From Mangrovimonas spongiae (GTDB lineage Bacteria > Bacteroidota > Bacteroidia > Flavobacteriales > Flavobacteriaceae): DNA of 64,000 nt. Positions 1,906 through 12,021 of this stretch are shown here, piece by piece. Both the position numbers and the translations under genes were made by a program. The first letter of the stretch is position 1, and the number at the start of each line of letters is the position of its first letter. Below the pieces are notes generated by a model. It was not told the origin of the DNA and did no database searches. It worked only from the letters and a program-made list of their open reading frames with translations. The stretch covers positions 186,001-250,000 of the forward strand of contig NZ_RWBG01000005.1 of the NCBI RefSeq assembly GCF_003944795.1, given 5' to 3'.

Positions 1906-1938
1906 AAGGCATTAGACAAGCTCTAATGCCTTTTTTTT
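1906..1938 (+). terminator. intrinsic terminator after the small membrane protein gene
   Basis: An 11-bp perfect stem AAGGCATTAGA/TCTAATGCCTT (1906-1916 and 1922-1932) with a 5-base loop is followed by eight T residues (1931-1938). The right arm overlaps the last codons and stop codon (1923-1925) of the convergent hisIE gene. There is no A-run on the left, so it acts for the plus strand only. Confidence 0.9.
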
Positions 1939-2519
1939 AGTATATTAACAACATCGTTGATACTAAATCCTTTGGCTTGTAATAGTATTAAGTAATGAAA
2001 TAATAGATCGGCTGTTTCGTTTAAAAACAGATTATCATTACTATCTTTAGCTTCAATAATAACTTCAACAGCTTCTTCCCCTACTTTTTGAGCTATTTTA
2101 TTTATTCCTTTTGAAAATAGTGAAGCCACATAAGATTGATTTGAATCGCTGTTTTCTATTCTGTTTGTTATAATTGTTTCTAATTTAGAGATAAACCCAT
2201 AAGATGATATGTTACTTTCTCCCCAACATGTATCACTACCTTTATGGCAAACTGTGCCTGTTGGTTTTACCTGAATTAATAATGTGTCATTATCGCAATC
2301 ACTTTTAATATTTACAAGCTTTAAATAGTGTCCACTTTCTTCACCTTTAGTCCATAAACGCTGTTTCGATCTACTATAGAAGGTAACCACTTTAGTTTTT
2401 ATGGTTTTTTTATAAGCTTCCTCATTCATATAGCCCAGCATTAGAACTGTTTTGGTTTCAGAGTCTTGAATAATTACTGGAACAAGGCCATCTATATTTT
2501 TTTTAAAATTTATTTTCAT
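1923..2519 (-). CDS. hisIE: bifunctional phosphoribosyl-AMP cyclohydrolase / phosphoribosyl-ATP pyrophosphatase
   Basis: A 198-residue fusion catalysing steps 2 and 3 of histidine synthesis. HisI occupies about residues 1-105, with MLGYMNEEAY, the WTKGEESGH segment and the Zn/Mg ligands CDNDTLL and CHKGSDTCW. HisE follows (about 112-198) with the MazG-like helices VGEEAVEVIIEAKD and ETADLLFHYLILL. It is the last gene of the operon; its ATG overlaps the hisF stop by one base at 2519, implying translational coupling. Length matches other fused HisIE proteins. Confidence 0.97.
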   Translation of the reverse strand: MKINFKKNIDGLVPVIIQDSETKTVLMLGYMNEEAYKKTIKTKVVTFYSRSKQRLWTKGEESGHYLKLVNIKSDCDNDTLLIQVKPTGTVCHKGSDTCWGESNISSYGFISKLETIITNRIENSDSNQSYVASLFSKGINKIAQKVGEEAVEVIIEAKDSNDNLFLNETADLLFHYLILLQAKGFSINDVVNILKKRH

Positions 2520-3274
2520 TAGAGTCGTACTTCTATTTGTTGTTGTTTTAATGTTTTCTTTAAATCGACAATGTTTATTTCACCAAAATGAAACACGCTA
2601 GCAGCTAAAGCCGCATCGGCTTTTCCTTGTTTAAACACATCTATGAAATGTTGTTGTTTTCCTGCCCCACCTGATGCAATAACTGGAATATTTAATTCTG
2701 AAGACAATTTAGCAAGGACGTCATTTGCAAAACCATTTTTAGTGCCATCATGATTCATTGAAGTAAATAATATTTCTCCTGCTCCTCGAGACTCAACCTC
2801 TTTGGCCCAATCAAATACATCTATTTTTGTTGGGATACTGCCACCAGCTAAATGTACGTTCCAAGAGCTATTAATCTTCTTAGCATCAATGGCAACAACT
2901 ACACACTGACTTCCATACTTATTAGCTAAATTATTAATCAACTCTGGACGCTTAACTGCAGATGAGTTAATTGATATTTTGTCTGCACCATTATTTAAAA
3001 GAATATATACATCTTCTACAGAGGAAATTCCCCCACCAACAGTAAAGGGAATATTTACTTGTTCTGCAACTTTTAAAACCATTTCTCTAGTGGTTTTTCT
3101 GGCTTCTTTAGTTGCCGAAATATCTAAAAAAACAAGTTCGTCTGCACCTTTTTTAGCGTATTGTTTTGCTAATTCAACGGGATCACCAGCATCTCTAAGA
3201 TTCACAAAATTAATACCTTTTACAGTCCGTCCATCTTTAATATCTAAACAAGGAATTATACGTTTTGTCAGCAT
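2519..3274 (-). CDS. hisF: imidazole glycerol phosphate synthase, cyclase subunit HisF
   Basis: A 251-residue (beta/alpha)8 barrel that works with HisH to make imidazole glycerol phosphate and AICAR. It starts [20 protein letters not shown], with the catalytic Asp of CLDIKDG and a second catalytic Asp in VVVAIDAKK; phosphate-binding loops VGGGI and ASGGAG are present. It lies one base from hisA and overlaps hisIE by one base. Length and residues are normal for the family. Confidence 0.98.
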
Positions 3275-3275
3275 C

Positions 3276-3998
3276 TTAAATAAATTTTTCTAATTCTTTT
3301 AATGTGATTTTATTTTCATACAAAGCCTTTCCTATAATAACACCTTCACAACCTATGTTTTTTAGTATATGTAATTCATTAATATTAGACACCCCGCCTG
3401 ACGCTATTAGTTTTATAGGATTATCATTACATTTTGAAATAATGTTTCTATATAAGTCTAACGATGGTCCTTCCAGCATACCGTCTTTAGAAATATCTGT
3501 ACAAATCACATATTGAATTCCTTTTTTCTGATAATTTTTTATAAATGGAATAAGAGCTAAATTACTTTGTTCTTGCCAACCATTAGTGGCAATTTTTTCA
3601 TCTTTACAATCGGCACCAAGAATAATTTTATTTTGACCATATTTACGAATCCAGTTATCAAAAACGTTAGGACTTTTAACTGCTATACTCCCACCTGTAA
3701 CTTGTTTTGCACCAGAACTAAAAGCTATATACAAATCCTCATCAGATTTTAAGCCGCCACCAAAATCTATACTTAAATTTGTTTCAGTTGCAATTTGTTC
3801 TAATATGTTATAATTAATAATTCGGTTGGATTTAGCACCATCTAAATCGACTAAATGAATGTGTTTAACACCAACACTTTCAAAGTGTTTAGCAACTTCT
3901 AAAGGGTTTTCATTATATATTTTTTTAGTATTGTAATTGCCTTTTGTTAATCTTACACATTTACCATTTATAATATCTATTGCAGGTATGATACGCAT
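3276..3998 (-). CDS. hisA: ProFAR isomerase HisA
   Basis: A 240-residue barrel enzyme, 1-(5-phosphoribosyl)-5-[(5-phosphoribosylamino)methylideneamino]imidazole-4-carboxamide isomerase. The start [20 protein letters not shown] gives the catalytic Asp of AIDI and the KCVRL motif; the second catalytic Asp is in [22 protein letters not shown] and ASGGVSN are the phosphate loops. The gene sits between hisH (10-base gap) and hisF (1-base gap). Confidence 0.98.
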
Positions 3999-4008
3999 AT
4001 CTTTCTTT

Positions 4009-4590
4009 TTAAATTTCTATAAAGTTTTTTAAAATCTGTTCGCCTAAATCACCACTTTTTTCTGGATGAAATTGAACTCCATAAAAATTTTTTTTTTGCA
4101 AAGCCGACGTATATTCTAGTCCATAATCTGTCTTTGAAATGGTTTCATCACAGATTTCAGCATAATAGCTATGTACCAAATACATGTATGATTTTTCAGG
4201 AATTCCAACAAATACGTCAGATTTCAAATCTTTAATAACATTCCATCCTACTTGCGGAACTTTTACACGAGTATCAAATTTTTTCACTTTTACATCAAAA
4301 ATACCTAGTCCATGAGTACTTCCTTCCTCTGTGTATTTACACAGCAACTGCATTCCTAAGCAGATGCCTAAAACAGGTTGTTGTAGGTTTGGTATTAATC
4401 TGTCCAAACTAGAGTGTTGTAACATGTTCATTGCGCTACTAGCCTCTCCTACACCAGGAAAAATAACTTTATCGGCTTTTAGAATGGTGGATTTGCTACT
4501 TGTTAATTCTGTGTTTATGCCTAAACGCTGAAATGCAAATTGTATACTTTTAATATTTCCTGCTCCGTAATCTATAATAACAACTTTCAT
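4009..4590 (-). CDS. hisH: imidazole glycerol phosphate synthase, glutaminase subunit HisH
   Basis: A 193-residue class I glutamine amidotransferase that supplies ammonia to HisF. The triad is visible: Cys77 in [10 protein letters not shown], His175 and Glu177 in QFHPEKSG. The oxyanion strand PGVGEA is present near residue 45. The start ATG overlaps the hisB stop by one base at 4590. Length is typical. Confidence 0.98.
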
Positions 4591-5726
4591 TATAAAACCC
4601 CTTTTGTTGATGGTAACATCATATTTTCGGCATCTCGTTTTATAGCCATTTTAATAGCTTTAGCAAAAGCTTTAAAAATGGCTTCAATTTTATGGTGCTC
4701 GTTAATTCCTTCTGCTTTAATATTCAAATTACATTTAGCACCATCAGTAAACGATTTAAAAAAATGATAAAACATTTCTGTAGGCATTTTTCCTATCATT
4801 TCACGTTTAAAATTGGCATTCCATACTAACCAATTTCTGCCACCAAAATCGATAGCTACTTGAGCTAAACAGTCATCCATTGGTAAACAAAACCCATAAC
4901 GTTCAATACCTAATTTATACCCCAAAGCCTTATTAAAAGCGTTTCCTAAAGCAATCGCTGTATCCTCAATAGTGTGATGTTCATCAACCTCTAAATCGCC
5001 ATTAACTTTAATGTCTAAATCTACTTGACTATGACGTGAAATTTGATCTAACATATGATTAAAAAAAGCTATTCCTGTATTTATGTTACTCTTTGCTGTT
5101 CCATCAAGATTTAATTGAATTGCTACTTGTGTTTCGTTAGTATTTCTTACTATAGTAGCTGTTCTATCGGTTAGTTTTAAAAACTCGTAAATTTCTTGCC
5201 AGTTTTTGGTTTCTAATGCTATATAAGGATTTAACTCCTCTCGTTTTACCGTAATTTCCTCACTTCCTAAATATGATTGGTTATTAATAAAAATACCTTT
5301 TGCGTTTAAGTTTTTGGCTAGTTGAATATCGGTTAAGCGATCTCCTATTACAAATGAGTTTTTTAAATCATACTTCTCGGAAAAATACGTGGTTAATAAG
5401 CCTGTATTTGGCTTTCTTGTTGGGGCATTATCTTTTGCAAAAGTTCGGTCAATAATCTCCTCTTTAAAAACGATTCCTTCGGCTTTAAAGGTTTTCATTA
5501 TAAAATTATGCACTGGCCAAAATGTATTTTCTGGAAAAGCTACTGTGCCTAACCCATCTTGATTAGTTATCATAACCAATTCATAATCTAACTCGTTTGT
5601 TATTTTGCTTAAATACTGAAATACTTTTGGATAAAATTCTAGCTTTTCAAAAGCATCTATTTGTTCATCTTTAGGCTCTTTTATTAATGTGCCATCTCTA
5701 TCTATAAATAATACTTTCTGCGCCAT
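4590..5726 (-). CDS. hisB: bifunctional histidinol-phosphatase / imidazoleglycerol-phosphate dehydratase
   Basis: A 378-residue fusion. The N-terminal HAD phosphatase domain (about 1-170) has the nucleophile motif FIDRDGTLI (Asp9, Asp11) and the later [13 protein letters not shown]. The C-terminal dehydratase domain (about 187-378) has the two Mn-binding repeats [12 protein letters not shown] and [15 protein letters not shown]. The bifunctional form occurs in enterobacteria and many Bacteroidota. It overlaps hisH and hisC by one base each. Confidence 0.98.
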
Positions 5727-6772
5727 TATAGTGTTTTTAAGGTGTTGATTAATACGGTATTTTCACGGCTAGTTCCTATAGTGAAACGCAAGCAGTTCTT
5801 ACAGCCAAATTGAGATGTTCGGTTTCGTACAACAATTCCTTTATTAATTAGTTGCTGGTATCTTTTTGTAGCATTGTCCACCTTAACTAAAATAAAGTTT
5901 GTTTCTGTTGGAAAAACTTGCTTTACAAATGAGATCTCTTTTAAAGCTGTTTTTAAAAGTTCTCTTTGTTTTATTATAATTTGAATTCTGCTTTTTATCT
6001 TCTCTGTTTTTTGTAGTTGCTGCAAAGCATATTGTTGAGTTAGCGTATTAACATTATATGGCAATTTTATCTTATTTAAGATATTAACAATTGTTTTTGA
6101 TGCATAGCATACTCCCAGCCTAATTCCAGCCATACCAAAAGCTTTTGATAATGTTTGCGTAATTACTAGATTAGGGAAATGATCTAATCTATTTAACCAG
6201 CTTTCCTGAGTTGAAAAATCGATATATGCTTCATCAAGAACAACAATCCCATTAAAACTGTTAAGTAATAATTCAATGTCCTTTGATTTAAAATGATTTC
6301 CAGATGGATTATTAGGCGAACAGAGAAATAATATTTTTGTATTGTTTGTTGTAGCGTTTAAAATATTTTCTACTTGTAATTGAAACTTATCATCAAGTGG
6401 TACTAAAGTACTTGACACATTATTTATGTTTGCCAACACTTGGTACATACCGTATGTTGGTGGTAAAATTATGATTTGGTCTTTCTTAGGTTCGCAAAAG
6501 GAACGAATTAATAAATCCAACACTTCGTCACTACCATTTCCTAAAAAGATATTATCAATATCAATATTTTTTAATTCTGAAAGGCATTCTTTTACTTTTA
6601 TTTGTTGTGGATCTGGGTAACGGTTTAATCCATTATTATAAGGGTTTTCGTTGGCATCTAAAAAAATCATATTGTTATTAAAACTCTTATATTCCTCTCT
6701 TGCAGAAGAATATGGTGTGACTAATTTTACCGATGGTCTTATTAAGTTTTCTATATTAAATGAGCGATTCAT
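5726..6772 (-). CDS. hisC: histidinol-phosphate aminotransferase
   Basis: A 348-residue fold type I PLP enzyme converting imidazole acetol phosphate and glutamate to histidinol phosphate. The Schiff-base lysine is Lys210 in [30 protein letters not shown] and LDEAYIDF are the substrate and PLP contacts, and RNRTSQFG and LRFTIGT close the active site. It starts two bases after hisD ends and shares one base with hisB. Confidence 0.97.
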
Positions 6773-6774
6773 TG

Positions 6775-8073
6775 TTATTTTTTGCTTGATTTTATTATAT
6801 CATTAAGTCTAATGGAAACAGCTTTTTTATGAGCTTGTAACCCTTCGGCATCTGCCATAATTTCTATGGTTTCACCTATATTTTTCAATCCTTTTTTAGT
6901 GATTTTTTGAAAGGTGATACTTTTTGTAAAACTATTTAAGTTTACTCCAGAGTACATTTTGCTAAACCCATTTGTTGGTAAAGTGTGGTTAGTGCCAGAA
7001 CCGTAATCACCAGCACTTTCAGGGGTGAAATTTCCTATAAAAATAGATCCTGCATTATTAATTTTATTAATAAATAACGCTTCATTTTTAGCACAAATTA
7101 TAAAGTGTTCTGGAGCATATTCATTAATCATTTTTAAAGCTATATCATCACTTTCTACTAAAATTAATTTTGAATTTTGTATCGCTTGTTCTGCAATAGA
7201 TTTCCTAGGCAACTCTTTAATTTGAATAGAAATTTCAGTTTTTACGCTTTCAATAAGAGATTCTGAAGTCGATATTAAAATTACCTGACTATCTACACCA
7301 TGTTCGGCTTGGCTAAGCAGGTCTGATGCCACATAAGAAGCCTTTGCAGAATCGTCGGCATATACCAACAACTCGCTTGGCCCAGCAGGCATGTCTATAG
7401 CTACACCATGTTTAATTGCCAATTGTTTCGCTATAGTAACAAATTGATTTCCCGGACCAAATATTTTATAAACCTGAGGTATTGTTTTGGTGCCAAATGT
7501 CATTCCAGCTATAGCTTGAATACCTCCTACTTTTATAATTTTTTTTACCCCACAAAGTTGAGCAGTAAATAAAATTTCTTTTGCTATATCTCCTTCTTTA
7601 TTTGGTGGCGTACAAATTACAATATCTTTGCAACCTGCTATTTTTGCTGGAATTGCTAACATTAATACCGTAGAAAATAATGGCGCTGTTCCTCCTGGAA
7701 TGTATAATCCTATTTTTTCTATAGGACGTTTTTCTTGCCAGCATCGAACTCCAGGTGAAGTTTCAATCTCTATTTTGGATGTTTTTTGAGCAGCATGAAA
7801 AGCTTCAATATTATCTTTAGCCATATATATAGCTGCTTTTAAGTTTTCTGATATTTTTTTACATGCATCATCAACTTCTTTCTTTGAAACTTTATAGTTC
7901 TTAAGCTCAACACCATCAAATATTGTTGTGTATTTTATTATTGCTTTGTCTCCTTGACGTTCTACATCATTAAAAATTTCATTAACAGTTTGTTCAATGT
8001 TATTAATAGTTTGGGTTGGTCGTTTTAAAATCTCGGACCAATCAGATGATTTAGGATTTATAATTGTTTTCAT
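6775..8073 (-). CDS. hisD: histidinol dehydrogenase
   Basis: The NAD-dependent, Zn-binding enzyme that oxidises histidinol to histidine in two steps. I place the start at 8073, giving 432 residues beginning MKTIINPKSSDW, because this ATG shares one base with the hisG stop (TAATG), the same arrangement as four other junctions in this operon. A longer in-frame start at 8100 would overlap hisG by 28 bases and add nine residues without family support. Motifs: FGPGNQFVTIAKQ, PAGPSELLVYAD, LSQAEHGVDSQV (Zn-ligand region), and GDYGSGTNHTLPT with the catalytic His. Confidence 0.97.
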   Translation of the reverse strand: MKTIINPKSSDWSEILKRPTQTINNIEQTVNEIFNDVERQGDKAIIKYTTIFDGVELKNYKVSKKEVDDACKKISENLKAAIYMAKDNIEAFHAAQKTSKIEIETSPGVRCWQEKRPIEKIGLYIPGGTAPLFSTVLMLAIPAKIAGCKDIVICTPPNKEGDIAKEILFTAQLCGVKKIIKVGGIQAIAGMTFGTKTIPQVYKIFGPGNQFVTIAKQLAIKHGVAIDMPAGPSELLVYADDSAKASYVASDLLSQAEHGVDSQVILISTSESLIESVKTEISIQIKELPRKSIAEQAIQNSKLILVESDDIALKMINEYAPEHFIICAKNEALFINKINNAGSIFIGNFTPESAGDYGSGTNHTLPTNGFSKMYSGVNLNSFTKSITFQKITKKGLKNIGETIEIMADAEGLQAHKKAVSIRLNDIIKSSKK

Positions 8074-8930
8074 TACAGTATCATATTTTCTATTGGACAA
8101 ACTAATATTCCTTCTGCGCCGTTTGCTTTAAGCTCATCTATAACTTCCCAAAATGTGTTTTTATTAATTACGGAGTGTAAAGAGCTCCATCCGCTTCTAG
8201 CTAATGGTATAATAGTAGGACTATTCATACCTGGAAGTATATTTATAATGTCTTTGATTTTTTCATTTGGGATATTTAATAGTACATATTTGTTTTGACG
8301 ACTTTTTAAAACCGATTGTATTCTAAACTGTAGTTTGCTTAGTATACTTTTTTGTATATTATGTATTTTAGGAGATACTGCTAAAACAGCTTCAGATTTT
8401 AATAAAACATCTACCTCTTTAAGATTATTTTTAAATAATGTATTTCCACTTGATACAATATCTACAATAGCATGAGCCAAACCTATATTTGGTGCAATTT
8501 CTACCGAACCATTAATAATGTGCAAATTGGCTGAAACATTATTTTTATTTAAAAATTTGGTTACAGTATTAGGGTAAGATGTTGCAATACGCTTACCTTG
8601 TAAGTCTTTGATACTTGAATATTGCTTGGTTTTGGGTATTGCGATAGATACTTTACATTTTGAAAAACCTAACTTTTCTATTACGGTAATATTATCTGCT
8701 TTTTCAAAAAGCACATTTTCACCAATAATTGCAGCATCAACAATACCGTCCTTTAGGTACTGAGGGATGTCGCCGTTACGTAAATAAAAAATTTCTAAAG
8801 GAAAATTGGCGGCCGAGGTTTTTAACTGGTCTTTACCATTATCTACAAAAACACCAATATCTTTTAGTATTTTCATAGAATCGTCATGTAACCTACCTGA
8901 TTTTTGTACAGCAATTTTTAATTTACTCAT
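8073..8930 (-). CDS. hisG: ATP phosphoribosyltransferase, long form with regulatory domain
   Basis: The first, committed enzyme of histidine synthesis. At 285 residues it is the long HisG form: a periplasmic-binding-like catalytic domain (about 1-210) with KIAVQKSGRLHDDSM and the PRPP loop VEIAPNIGLAHAIVDIV, then the C-terminal ACT-like domain (about 212-285) that mediates histidine feedback inhibition in this form, so no HisZ is needed. Its first codons (8917-8929) can form a 13-bp hairpin with upstream element 8950-8962 that would hide the start codon. It is the first structural gene after the His leader and attenuator. Confidence 0.97.
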   Translation of the reverse strand: MSKLKIAVQKSGRLHDDSMKILKDIGVFVDNGKDQLKTSAANFPLEIFYLRNGDIPQYLKDGIVDAAIIGENVLFEKADNITVIEKLGFSKCKVSIAIPKTKQYSSIKDLQGKRIATSYPNTVTKFLNKNNVSANLHIINGSVEIAPNIGLAHAIVDIVSSGNTLFKNNLKEVDVLLKSEAVLAVSPKIHNIQKSILSKLQFRIQSVLKSRQNKYVLLNIPNEKIKDIINILPGMNSPTIIPLARSGWSSLHSVINKNTFWEVIDELKANGAEGILVCPIENMIL

Positions 8931-8962
8931 TCTTAATGTTTATTGTGTTTGAGTAAATCAAA
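8917..8962 (-). promoter_or_regulatory. candidate start-codon-sequestering hairpin of hisG
   Basis: On the minus strand TTTGATTTACTCA (8962 down to 8950) can pair with TGAGTAAATTAAA (8929 down to 8917): 13 pairs, including one G-U. The second arm contains the UG of the hisG AUG and codons 2 to 4. The 20-base loop holds the presumed ribosome-binding region. Pairing is seen in the sequence; a role in translation is inference. Confidence 0.5.
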
Positions 8963-9014
8963 TGAAGGTTTATGGTATTATAGAAAACAAAAAACCCGTT
9001 TGATTTACTCAAAC
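8947..9014. repeat. 16-bp perfect inverted repeat: terminator core versus hisG upstream region
   Basis: GTTTGAGTAAATCAAA at 8947-8962 is the exact reverse complement of TTTGATTTACTCAAAC at 8999-9014, with 36 bases between. The right copy is the core of the his leader terminator. Each copy is itself a small hairpin, and the two loops (GTAAA and TTTAC) are complementary, so a kissing-loop or full duplex is possible. Confidence 0.85.
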
Positions 9015-9020
9015 GGGTTT
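8989..9020 (-). terminator. leader (attenuator) terminator of the histidine operon
   Basis: Read on the minus strand, a 12-bp perfect stem AAACCCGTTTGA / TCAAACGGGTTT with loop GTAAA is followed by a run of six T (8994-8989). It lies between the leader peptide (stop at 9055) and hisG (start at 8930), so transcription must pass it to reach the operon. The 5' arm can instead pair with the leader peptide's 3' codons. Confidence 0.93.
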
Positions 9021-9069
9021 CAATATATTTTACTTCAATTTAGTCAATACATTTTCAGCTCGCTTGAGT
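9007..9069 (-). promoter_or_regulatory. antiterminator pairing of the his leader
   Basis: On the minus strand ACTCAAGCG (9069-9061), inside the last codons of the leader peptide, can pair with CGTTTGAGT (9015-9007), the 5' arm and loop of the terminator: nine pairs with one G-U. A ribosome stalled at the His codons would leave this segment free and favour readthrough; a ribosome at the UGA stop (9057-9055) would cover it and let the terminator form. Geometry is seen; the mechanism follows the classical attenuation model. Confidence 0.72.
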
Positions 9070-9111
9070 GCAAGTATGAAAATGATGATGGTGTAATTGA
9101 ATAAAAGTCAT
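9055..9111 (-). CDS. hisL: histidine operon leader peptide
   Basis: An 18-residue open frame, MTFIQLHHHHFHTCTQAS, with five His residues (7-10 and 12), too short for usual ORF calling. It lies 124 bases upstream of hisG on the same strand and just before an antiterminator/terminator pair, exactly as in attenuators of amino-acid operons (compare E. coli hisL, which has seven His in a row). The sequence is unrelated to hisL apart from the His run. The ATG follows the A-rich stretch AAAGAAAACAA. The function is inferred from composition and position; the symbol is used by analogy. Confidence 0.88.
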   Translation of the reverse strand: MTFIQLHHHHFHTCTQAS

Positions 9112-9129
9112 TTGTTTTCTTTAACCAAA

Positions 9130-9162
9130 CAAAGGTTTCAAAAAATAATTTAGAAATCCAAA
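9130..9162 (-). promoter_or_regulatory. candidate promoter of the histidine leader
   Basis: On the minus strand TTTG (9162-9159), 21 bases, then AACCTTTG (9137-9130), one mismatch from TAnnTTTG. Transcription would start near 9124, about 13 bases before the leader ATG at 9111. A nearby TATTTTTTG is an alternative but has poorer spacing. Confidence 0.35.
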
Positions 9163-9168
9163 TTTTAA

Positions 9169-9984
9169 TTATTGATTTCCTAAAATAATAGGCATACCAG
9201 ATTCTCCAGAACCTATTATAACCACTTTGCTATTAGGAGATTCCGATAGTTTGTTGGTAGCTTCAATACCTTTATCTTGTAAAATTTTATCGGTTAGCGA
9301 TGCACTTAATATTTTATTAGCATCGGCTTTTCCTTTTGCTTCAATACGTTGGCGTTCAGCTTCTTTTCGGGCTTTTTCTAACCTAAACTCATACTCTAAA
9401 GACTCTTGTTCTTGACGTAATTTACGTTCAATCGCATCTTTAATTGTTGGTGGTAAAGTAACATCTCTAACCAAAATCTCATCAATAACAATATGCTGAT
9501 CGTCTACAATTTTTTTAGTTTCTTCAAAAATTTCGGCTTGAATAGCATCACGTTTGCTAGAATATAATTGCTCTGGTGTGTAGCGTCCAACAACACTTCT
9601 TGCTGCAGAACGAATGGTTGGCAAAATAATTCTGTTTAAATAGTCCTCACCAATTTCTTGGTGTAACTTTCCTAAGTTATTAATTTCTGGTTTATACCAC
9701 GTTGAAGCATCTAGTTGAATGTCTAATCCGTTTGAAGAAAGCACTTTCATTTTTTCAAAAATCTCTTGACGGCGTACTTCATAAACATACACTTTATTCC
9801 AAGGGGCTACAATATGAAACCCTTCTCCTAAGGCTGGTTCATCTGTAACAACGCCACCTCCAAATCTTTTGTATAAAACGCCTGCTTCACCAGAATCTAT
9901 GGTGACAGCCGATTTTGAAATAAGAATAACAATAAAAATAAGTAATACCACGAATGGTAATGCAATTTTGGGTAATCTTTCCAT
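9169..9984 (-). CDS. prohibitin-like SPFH-domain membrane protein
   Basis: A 271-residue prohibitin/stomatin superfamily protein. One N-terminal transmembrane helix (about 8-24) is followed by the SPFH domain (about 25-200; IDSGEAGVLYKRFGG, GFHIVAPWNKVYVYEVRRQE) and a charged coiled coil with repeated Glu/Arg/Lys/Ala (about 205-245). Family members form ring oligomers in membranes and often regulate FtsH-type proteases. It starts 12 bases after the vWA gene ends and is probably co-transcribed with it and fabG. No terminator separates it from the his leader promoter region. Confidence 0.92.
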   Translation of the reverse strand: MERLPKIALPFVVLLIFIVILISKSAVTIDSGEAGVLYKRFGGGVVTDEPALGEGFHIVAPWNKVYVYEVRRQEIFEKMKVLSSNGLDIQLDASTWYKPEINNLGKLHQEIGEDYLNRIILPTIRSAARSVVGRYTPEQLYSSKRDAIQAEIFEETKKIVDDQHIVIDEILVRDVTLPPTIKDAIERKLRQEQESLEYEFRLEKARKEAERQRIEAKGKADANKILSASLTDKILQDKGIEATNKLSESPNSKVVIIGSGESGMPIILGNQ

Positions 9985-9996
9985 GTGTTAGTGTTT

Positions 9997-12021
9997 TTAA
10001 ATTAGTCCTTTATATTTTCTGATAAACCATTCTAACGATAAGCAAAAAACAATAAACGCCAAAAGGTATTTCCAATTTATTAAGGGCAATGTTGTTTTTG
10101 TTGTTTTTTGAATGGGTTTAAACCTTTCATCTTTAAGCAAGTTATTAAAAAGTAACTTGTAATTTGATGAGAAAAATAGGTTTCCTTTACTATTAGTTGC
10201 TATTTGGGATAGTTTTGTTACATCTGCATTTAAAAATTGTTGTTCTATGTTGTACGCTAATATTTTAAAACTAGCAGATTTTGATAAGTTTGAATTTGCT
10301 GTTTTAACGGTAAAGTCATAGTCGGCAGGTGGTAAGTTGCTTAAATTAACTTCAAAGTAATTATTTTTTAAAACTAATGGGTATTCAAAAGTTTCTTGCG
10401 TTTTTTTGTTTGTTAAACGGATATGTAACTTCTCTCTGGCATCAAACTCATAGTTTTTATTAAAGTATTGGGCTTTTAAAATAACCTGTGTACTTCCTTC
10501 GTAAAACGAATTATAATCTAATACCAATCTGTCTTTTCGTTTTTTCGAGGCCAAATATTGAATAAGTTTTCCTGTAAAATTGTCAAAAGTATTAAACGAT
10601 GAGGAGTTTAAATAACTTTGCGCTCGCCACTGCCATATATTTTCTCCTAACAATACGGCATTTCGAGCACCATTATTTTCGGTCGTCACTAAAAGTGGCG
10701 ACTCGGTAATTACATTCCCTATTTGCTTGTAAAGAAGGATACTATGATTTTTTTCAAAAGAAATATCGCCAAAAACACCTTTTAATGGTGGAAAGCTTGA
10801 AAAAGCTAAATCCTCTATAATAAAATTTGAATAGCTTGGGTTTAACTGTGCTTGAAATGCTTCGGTTTGATTATTTATATCGTGTTTAAATCCTAAATTT
10901 TCACTATTAAGCAACTGCCAATTGGTCTTAGTTCCTGCAATAATAAAGGTGTTTATAGGTGTTTGTTTTAAAGCATTAATTATGGGCTTAAATTTACTAT
11001 CAGGCTGATATAAAATAGCCAATTGATAGTCGTTAACACGCGCTATAAACTCTCCTGGAGATATTATATCGCATTGGCGTTGTTCGTTGGTTTCTATACT
11101 TTTTTTTATGGCACCAATATCTGGATGAGTTATACTACTTACAATGGCAACTTTGGTCTTTTCGTCTATAACTTCAACAGCGAAATTTTTGGTATTATTT
11201 AAGGTGTTTTTTTCTCCTGTTATGGCATTAACATGTACTTTGTAAGTTTGCACGCCTACTTTATTAGCTGGTAAATAAAATGTAACAACATCAGATGTGT
11301 TTTCTTTTGAAAATGATAAAGGCTTGGTAAAAATAACAGCATCTCCTTGTTTAACAGTTAATGTAGTACTTATGTTTTTTTGCCCGTGATATACTACAAT
11401 AGCTTCCACTGGGAATTTATTCTTTAAATACGCGTATTTATTTGTATTTAATTGTTGAATTTTTAAGTCGCTGTGTGCCGTGGTATCACCTACAACTACA
11501 GGATAAACTACCTGGTTATAGTTTTTAGAAACAAAAGAGTAATCGCTTCCAAAGGTTTGATTTCCATCTGTTACCAGAATTGTTGGCGCTGTTTGATTGG
11601 TATAAATTTGTTGAAGTTGTGTAAAAACATCGCTTATATTCGATTGTTTTTCAGAGAACGTCAGACTGTCACTTTTACTTAAGGTTTTGCCAAAGGTAAA
11701 ATAGTCAATATTAAATTTTCTCGATAAATCTGCTCGTGATTTTACTTCAGATAACAGTTGCTTAACTTCTGTTTCTTGTTTAAAGTAATTAATAGAATTA
11801 GAGTTATCTAAAACAATGGCCAAAGAAGGTTTTTGTATGTAGGTCTGTTTTGTTTCTATTTTTGGGTTTACTAATAAAATAAATATGGCAAACAGACTAA
11901 GAAACCGTAAAAACGTTAAAAAAATATTTTTAGTTTTAGATCTATATTTATACTGAAATAGCGCTAATAATAGCGCTATAACTCCAGATAATATAATATA
12001 TAGTAGGGTTTCTGTATTCAT
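9997..12021 (-). CDS. vWA-type membrane protein (BatA-like architecture)
   Basis: A 674-residue protein with two N-terminal transmembrane helices (about 5-25 and 33-54), a large extracytoplasmic region and one C-terminal helix in LINWKYLLAFIVFCLSLEWF. The first folded domain resembles von Willebrand factor A, with the MIDAS motif DNSNS (DxSxS) near residue 92 and the TILVTDGNQ strand. The middle part looks like Ig-like and ThuA/glutaminase-like folds common in Bacteroidota vWA proteins, but this is only a resemblance. It lies three bases after fabG and 12 before the SPFH gene. Precise function unknown. A second protein with this layout is at 54767-56686. Confidence 0.8.
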   Translation of the reverse strand: MNTETLLYIILSGVIALLLALFQYKYRSKTKNIFLTFLRFLSLFAIFILLVNPKIETKQTYIQKPSLAIVLDNSNSINYFKQETEVKQLLSEVKSRADLSRKFNIDYFTFGKTLSKSDSLTFSEKQSNISDVFTQLQQIYTNQTAPTILVTDGNQTFGSDYSFVSKNYNQVVYPVVVGDTTAHSDLKIQQLNTNKYAYLKNKFPVEAIVVYHGQKNISTTLTVKQGDAVIFTKPLSFSKENTSDVVTFYLPANKVGVQTYKVHVNAITGEKNTLNNTKNFAVEVIDEKTKVAIVSSITHPDIGAIKKSIETNEQRQCDIISPGEFIARVNDYQLAILYQPDSKFKPIINALKQTPINTFIIAGTKTNWQLLNSENLGFKHDINNQTEAFQAQLNPSYSNFIIEDLAFSSFPPLKGVFGDISFEKNHSILLYKQIGNVITESPLLVTTENNGARNAVLLGENIWQWRAQSYLNSSSFNTFDNFTGKLIQYLASKKRKDRLVLDYNSFYEGSTQVILKAQYFNKNYEFDAREKLHIRLTNKKTQETFEYPLVLKNNYFEVNLSNLPPADYDFTVKTANSNLSKSASFKILAYNIEQQFLNADVTKLSQIATNSKGNLFFSSNYKLLFNNLLKDERFKPIQKTTKTTLPLINWKYLLAFIVFCLSLEWFIRKYKGLI

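Follow-up and report, generated by a model that had tools for sequence, protein, structure and literature searches.

The hisL attenuator of E. coli and Salmonella is situated before hisG of a hisGDC... operon, and consists of a leader peptide with a run of histidines and of mutually exclusive pause, antiterminator and terminator hairpins. In 2010, leader-peptide systems were known only in Proteobacteria, Actinobacteria and, newly, in Firmicutes (PMC2965389). Passages of a survey of the his genes in Bacteroidota describe attenuation for enterobacteria only (PMC8305728), and a passage in another paper (PMC4833913) cites a comparative study from 2010 by Lopatovskaya et al., which may include Bacteroidota. 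For F. psychrophilum, passages of a transcriptome study from 2021 report that hisG is preceded by a structured 5' region, which was expressed, conserved in other Flavobacteriaceae and without an Rfam match, and they mention hints that amino-acid operons are attenuated by leader peptides (PMC9723704).

Two other systems are relevant to what may follow a terminator. The vmlR leader of B. subtilis combines antitermination by a stalled upstream ORF with an additional structure located 3' of the terminator, which the authors propose to limit translation of the read-through mRNA (PMC9226507). The rnTrpL / peTrpL leader of the trp genes in S. meliloti is known as an attenuator leader whose products are active in trans, beyond termination in cis (PMC7298713).

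Here, we analyzed the his locus in a stretch of DNA of 64 kb, referred to as the window, for which an earlier note had proposed a histidine leader peptide and a ribosome-mediated attenuator upstream of hisG. All of the pieces claimed in the note were found, although it did not give their strand, which was the minus strand in every case.

Results

The leader ORF and the his operon

The operon was complete and intact, with the gene order hisG-D-C-B-H-A-F-IE from 8930 to 1923. The leader ORF and the genes were located as follows.

9055..9111, minus strand: his leader peptide ORF MTFIQLHHHHFHTCTQAS (ATG 9111, UGA 9055)
8073..8930, minus strand: hisG, the first operon gene, long-form ATP phosphoribosyltransferase (matches to TIGR00070 and TIGR03455 exceed the cut-off)
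1923..8100, minus strand: the remaining operon genes (this and the following by NCBIfam)
6775-8100, minus strand: hisD
5726-6772, minus strand: hisC
4590-5726, minus strand: hisB (bifunctional)
4009-4590, minus strand: hisH
3276-3998, minus strand: hisA
2519-3274, minus strand: hisF
1923-2519, minus strand: hisIE

The leader ORF consisted of 18 codons, with histidines at codons 7-10 (9093-9082) and 12 (9078-9076), and its UGA was separated from the hisG ATG (8930) by 124 nt, precisely as the earlier note had described. Among the 808 ATG frames of 8 to 60 amino acids in the 64 kb window, the leader ORF alone contained 5 or more His within 8 codons, a density that was not reached in any of 3000 dinucleotide-shuffled versions of the hisG upstream region.

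Upstream of the leader, a promoter-like pair was noted on the minus strand.

9130..9162, minus strand: TTTG at 9162-9159 and AACCTTTG at 9137-9130, separated by a 21-nt spacer

The motif TAnnTTTG is the known -7 element of Bacteroidota, from which AACCTTTG differed by one mismatch. Exact copies were present in the 45 nt that precede the leader ATG at 49 of the 141 loci in relatives, as compared with 0.7% in a control stretch, and the most frequent spacing between TTG and TAnnTTTG in the relatives was 21 nt. As judged from this predicted motif of the Bacteroidota type, located 5' of 9111, transcription probably starts just upstream of 9111. We also noted a co-directional gene at 9169-9984, with weak HflC/HflK-like matches, which ended 57 bp before the leader ATG. 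No clear terminator was noticed between this gene and the leader ATG, and some of its transcripts might therefore run into the his leader.

Three mutually exclusive helices

The RNA elements up to the end of the terminator are listed below; the numbers 1 to 4 refer to the pairing segments.

9050..9084, minus strand: hairpin 1:2 (pause or anti-antiterminator), pairing 9084-9077 with 9057-9050 and 9074-9070 with 9063-9059 (MFE fold, covariation)
9061..9069, minus strand: antiterminator strand (segment 2), codons 15-17 ACT CAA GCG (conserved pairing with segment 3)
8992..9020, minus strand: intrinsic terminator hairpin 3:4, AAACCCGTTTGA-GTAAA-TCAAACGGGTTT (fold, covariation)
8984..8991, minus strand: U-rich tract TTTGTTTT located 3' of the hairpin (sequence reading)

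The terminator stem paired 9020-9009 with 9003-8992 (-16.5 kcal/mol, z -5.9). The stem of 12 bp and the run of six U in the earlier note both exist, but 3 of the U in the run (8994-8989) are paired in the stem, so that the two share 3 bases. The antiterminator 2:3 consisted of nine pairs, 9069-9061 with the segment 3 stretch 9015-9007 (-12.4 kcal/mol, p 0.001); this helix had been thought to end at the UGA, but covers codons 15-17 and stops 3 bases short of it. Hairpin 1:2, which was missing from the earlier list of parts, was present in the MFE fold (9084-9070/9063-9050), where it included His codons 10 and 12 as well as the stop codon, and sequestered part of the antiterminator strand.

Helix statistics were obtained from an alignment of 62 Flavobacteriales leaders (A1). 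The terminator was paired in 98.5% of the cells, with 14 double-changed cells versus 1.4 in the shuffled data, and hairpin 1:2 in 89.8%, with 55 double-changed cells versus 19.1. The antiterminator was paired in 96.8% of the cells, and its sequence was nearly invariant in the order, as is expected for a segment 2 that encodes codons of the peptide and has two pairing partners, the other strand of hairpin 1:2 and segment 3; its covariation support therefore comes from outside the Flavobacteriales. RNAalifold on the whole alignment returned the terminator alone, as expected if the helices are mutually exclusive. We also considered an outer helix between codons 3-6 and the region after the stop codon, for which the support was weak, with 69.6% of the cells paired and slid versions scoring alike.

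Conservation in Bacteroidota

Loci with hisG were collected by a genome search of relatives and from 80 named contigs, and the counts contain a few duplicates from the same genome. A leader with a His run was located 5' of hisG at 110 of the 111 loci in the first round, almost all of which contained a hairpin with the 5' arm CCCGTTTGAG after the leader. The usual peptide in the relatives followed the pattern M-x-F-I-Q-L-H-H-H-(H)-F-H-x-C-x-Q-A-x, and the His codons in the Flavobacteriales leaders were CAT in 573 cases versus CAC in 30. In a second sample of the phylum, most of the other Bacteroidota had a His-rich leader 5' of hisG, and some distant loci contained no leader or no terminator under the criteria used.

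Beyond the Flavobacteriales, the antiterminator and terminator sequences were entirely different while the pairing was retained, as illustrated by a distant terminator, GGCTTACC...GGTAAGCC, in which the strand at the end of the peptide was altered as well (GGTAAGC). The 2:3 pairing was identified at p<=0.05 in 36 of the 45 distant loci with a detectable leader and terminator, usually at the last codons of the peptide or at the stop. Both conservation checks proposed for the attenuator thus came out in its favor: the His run recurs in most of the sampled Bacteroidota, compensatory changes were found in 1:2 and 3:4, and 2:3 has been swapped as a unit outside the Flavobacteriales.

A covariance model of the leader (R1) gave one match per genome in 38 of 60 relatives, which was located directly 5' of hisG in all genomes but one. 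The exception (G030), which has no full hisG, has retained a regulatory fossil, namely the leader and terminator in front of a truncated remnant of the gene (L277, G030:C11:14349-14521). Neither positions 8000-10000 of the window nor six other loci had an Rfam match at the gathering score, hence no membership in the hisL-type family was detected in sequence or structure. Matches at relaxed E-values (miRNA families, PyrR) were dismissed as chance matches to the local palindrome. The T-box model had no match in the same set of sequences, which have a leader ORF with a His run instead.

A fifth segment between the terminator and hisG

A further segment, absent from the earlier note, was identified downstream of the terminator.

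8947..8962, minus strand: segment 5, TTTGATTTACTCAAAC (complementarity to 9014-8999, covariation)

Segment 5 was perfectly complementary to 9014-8999, which comprises the terminator 5' arm, the loop and the start of the 3' arm (duplex 3:5, -20.5 kcal/mol, p 0.001), and it ended 16 nt before the hisG ATG in the window. Positions 8947-9014 form an imperfect palindrome, first seen in a self-search of the whole genome, in which the self-match was local only. A duplex of this type was found at p<=0.05 in 106 of 128 loci, nearly all from the Flavobacteriales, to which segment 5 was essentially confined. It was present at approximately 80% of the loci in this order, with about a fifth lacking a clear segment 5, and its 3' end was mostly located 13-17 nt upstream of the hisG ATG. 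At five loci (L009, L042, L050, L052 and L073), segment 5 was separated from the hisG start by an additional small insert that resembles a hairpin (ACCCAC..GTGGG type) and shifts the segment to about 46 nt from the ATG. The idea that loci lacking segment 5 have their terminator closer to hisG was rejected, as the medians were alike (52 vs 54 nt), although the terminator was indeed near the gene at a few of them.

To avoid circularity, segment 5 was selected by its match to seven arm bases only, which left the loop bases for the test. The loop bases, which are free of the other proposed helices, paired at 2.33 of 3 positions, compared with 1.34 for permuted partners (0/20000), and at 2.47 versus 1.22 with one entry per distinct core. 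On A1, 87.6% of the 3:5 cells were paired, double changes were observed in 8 of the 13 pairs, and 49 cells were double-changed versus 16.7 in the shuffled data. The covariation score was 0.264, as compared with at most 0.067 for slid versions and 0.147 for the terminator itself. Because shuffles ignore relatedness, a hisG tree was added, in which the loop and partner triplets both changed on 18 branches. Of these, 11 ended in full Watson-Crick pairing, whereas the control gave a mean of 0.7 and a maximum of 4. In another family of the Flavobacteriales (L141), the terminator was unrelated (TGCCGAAGTGTTT), and a segment complementary to it at 12/13 positions, AAACACTTAGGCA, was located about 14 nt before hisG.

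The mismatches in 3:5 were G.U in 71 cases and A.C in 12, a ratio of about six to one, and were asymmetric between the strands, with U opposite G in 42/265 versus A opposite C in 5/202 (p 6e-7). The excess of G.U over A.C indicates pairing between sense-strand RNA, which is strongly supported by these comparative data.

Leaders at other amino-acid operons

Upstream of trpE in the same genome, we noted a probable Trp leader peptide, MNTILNNTWWWNFRNATFVK (L243, G000:C4, 103053-103493), with a terminator that ended 14 nt before trpE; similar WWW leaders were seen in several relatives. A probable Phe leader peptide, MKTNSTFTYYNWFYFFFSKGNEA (L273, G000:C3, 321209-321745), was located upstream of pheA with a terminator that ended 13 nt before the gene, and Phe/Tyr-rich leaders were found in many relatives. 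In one relative, the region upstream of ilvD (L203) contained a possible branched-chain leader, MRVNNVILSIIILLCQL, and a terminator. The searches for ilvD and thrA leaders otherwise gave little, and most of the thrA genes extended past the locus ends. A general occurrence of segment 5 in amino-acid leaders was rejected, as none was seen at trpE or pheA, where the terminators were mostly near the gene.

Discussion

Evidence for an attenuator of the his operon

The locus combines a leader ORF with many codons for histidine, the amino acid that the operon makes, a terminator before the first gene, an exclusive antiterminator and an overlapping pause hairpin, with a geometry that places strand 2 under a ribosome at the stop codon. 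We consider it very likely that the his operon has a ribosome-mediated transcription attenuator, since the leader is beyond chance, the His run is phylum-wide, helices 1:2 and 3:4 covary, 2:3 is retained and the operon is intact. The earlier reading is thus supported at the level of sequence by the regulatory codons, the mutually exclusive helices and their conservation, but it was incomplete in that segment 5 was missed.

In the proposed mechanism, transcription would begin shortly 5' of 9111. With ample His-tRNA, the ribosome would reach the UGA and cover segment 2, 3:4 would form and the polymerase would stop at the U tract. If no ribosome is present, hairpin 1:2 would hide segment 2, again with formation of 3:4 and a stop at the U tract. 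Under a shortage of His-tRNA, the ribosome would stall at His codons 7-10 and block strand 1, so that segment 2 could capture segment 3, no terminator would form and the operon would be transcribed. The start site, termination, stalling and antitermination in this model are all deduced from the DNA.

Similar to hisL, the leader has a His run and exclusive helices before hisG; unlike hisL, the antiterminator strand is located in the last codons of the peptide, and in Flavobacteriales segment 5 is added after the terminator. We know of no E. coli counterpart of segment 5.

The structured region upstream of hisG in F. psychrophilum (PMC9723704) is very probably the same element, given its place before hisG, its conservation in other Flavobacteriaceae, its expression and its lack of an Rfam hit. 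Loci with closely related leaders (L123-L136) contained the leader and terminator and, mostly, segment 5. The statement in the earlier note that no tested example was known to its author in Flavobacteriia needs to be qualified, although the passages of PMC9723704 on F. psychrophilum do not include a helix model, covariation, the phylum-wide extent or segment 5.

Possible roles of segment 5

The decision to terminate is taken before segment 5 has been transcribed, and segment 5 must therefore act on the read-through mRNA, either in cis or together with the terminated leader in trans. The read-through mRNA in Flavobacteriales would include segment 5, able to pair with segment 3 and the terminator loop. 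At equilibrium, 3:4 beat 3:5 in most of the read-through leaders, with a median of 3.6 kcal/mol and 2.6 in the window, and 3:5 won or tied in some relatives. The 3:5 helix could nucleate at the terminator loop, and may be near enough in energy to matter kinetically once 2:3 has kept segment 3 off segment 4.

Burying of the hisG start was not supported, since formation of 3:5 did not reduce the predicted accessibility of -20..+10 (0.66 vs 0.58). As the AUG is not buried by 3:5 in the model, any effect on initiation would have to be exerted by a helix that borders the ribosome site on its upstream side. Ribosomes in Bacteroidota mostly initiate without Shine-Dalgarno pairing. We would put the case at about even that segment 5 tunes hisG translation or the refolding of the leader in the read-through mRNA, and control of hisG translation in cis appears to be the likeliest role, to which we assign roughly half of our confidence.

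The closest precedent for an additional layer that acts on the read-through mRNA is the vmlR leader (PMC9226507), but it differs in that it senses antibiotics with a tripeptide and has a separate SD-sequestering hairpin, whereas segment 5 pairs with the arm and loop of the terminator itself. A published precedent for segment 5 was not found in the searchable literature.

The next candidate, which we regard as rather unlikely, is that the terminated leader, with its loop exposed, pairs in trans with segment 5 in the full-length transcript of the operon and makes this transcript less stable or less well translated, with the product of attenuation feeding back on the remaining mRNA. The complementarity takes in the terminator loop, as in RNA-RNA pairing that begins at a loop, and covariation as sense RNA fits cis and trans equally. 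The S. meliloti leader (PMC7298713) provides a model, but with another operon and other targets, and for the his leader activity in trans is only proposed. Moreover, full pairing in trans requires that a hairpin of -16.5 kcal/mol be opened, whereas the partner in cis is always there at high local concentration.

It is still less probable that segment 5 has no regulatory role and is one half of an inverted repeat that persists because of template-directed correction at replication, or a half-site of a DNA operator. The terminator and segment 5 do constitute an inverted repeat about 40 bp apart, both with the near-palindromic GTTTGA...TCAAAC, and the whole-genome self-match was local only. However, mismatches that are asymmetric between the strands (p 6e-7) would not be expected from DNA repeat correction or a protein site, most loci have segment 5 at a distance of 13-17 nt from the hisG start, and the relation survives the unrelated terminator in L141 (12/13 pairs).

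Least tenable, and in our view very improbable, is that the ORF encodes an ordinary small or metal-binding peptide and that the hairpin terminates the upstream gene at 9169-9984. This gene does run in the same direction and stops 57 bp short of the leader, and we noticed no other terminator between the two. However, the element is found at hisG across a phylum, the C-terminus of the peptide and the terminator arm have been replaced jointly, and other amino-acid operons in the same genomes have matching leaders for Trp and Phe, accompanied by terminators. Covariation between segments 2 and 3 in distant Bacteroidota, which is incompatible with this explanation, was also observed.

Attenuation in Bacteroidota

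The attenuator is ordinary in kind, widespread and little described, and segment 5 is a new element. Regulation by leader-peptide attenuation has been little studied in Bacteroidota, and our data indicate that, for histidine synthesis, it comes close to being the rule throughout this phylum. The element has no Rfam family, for which the alignment A1 and the model R1 could serve as a seed. Segment 5 represents a co-evolving RNA element inside a regulator of the textbook type, and the attenuator and segment 5 may, on an evenly balanced view, constitute a two-layer switch, in which segment 3 and the loop would choose among the antiterminator, the terminator partner and segment 5 by the hisG start, and the His-tRNA signal would also set the translation of the read-through mRNA, in cis or via the terminated leader.
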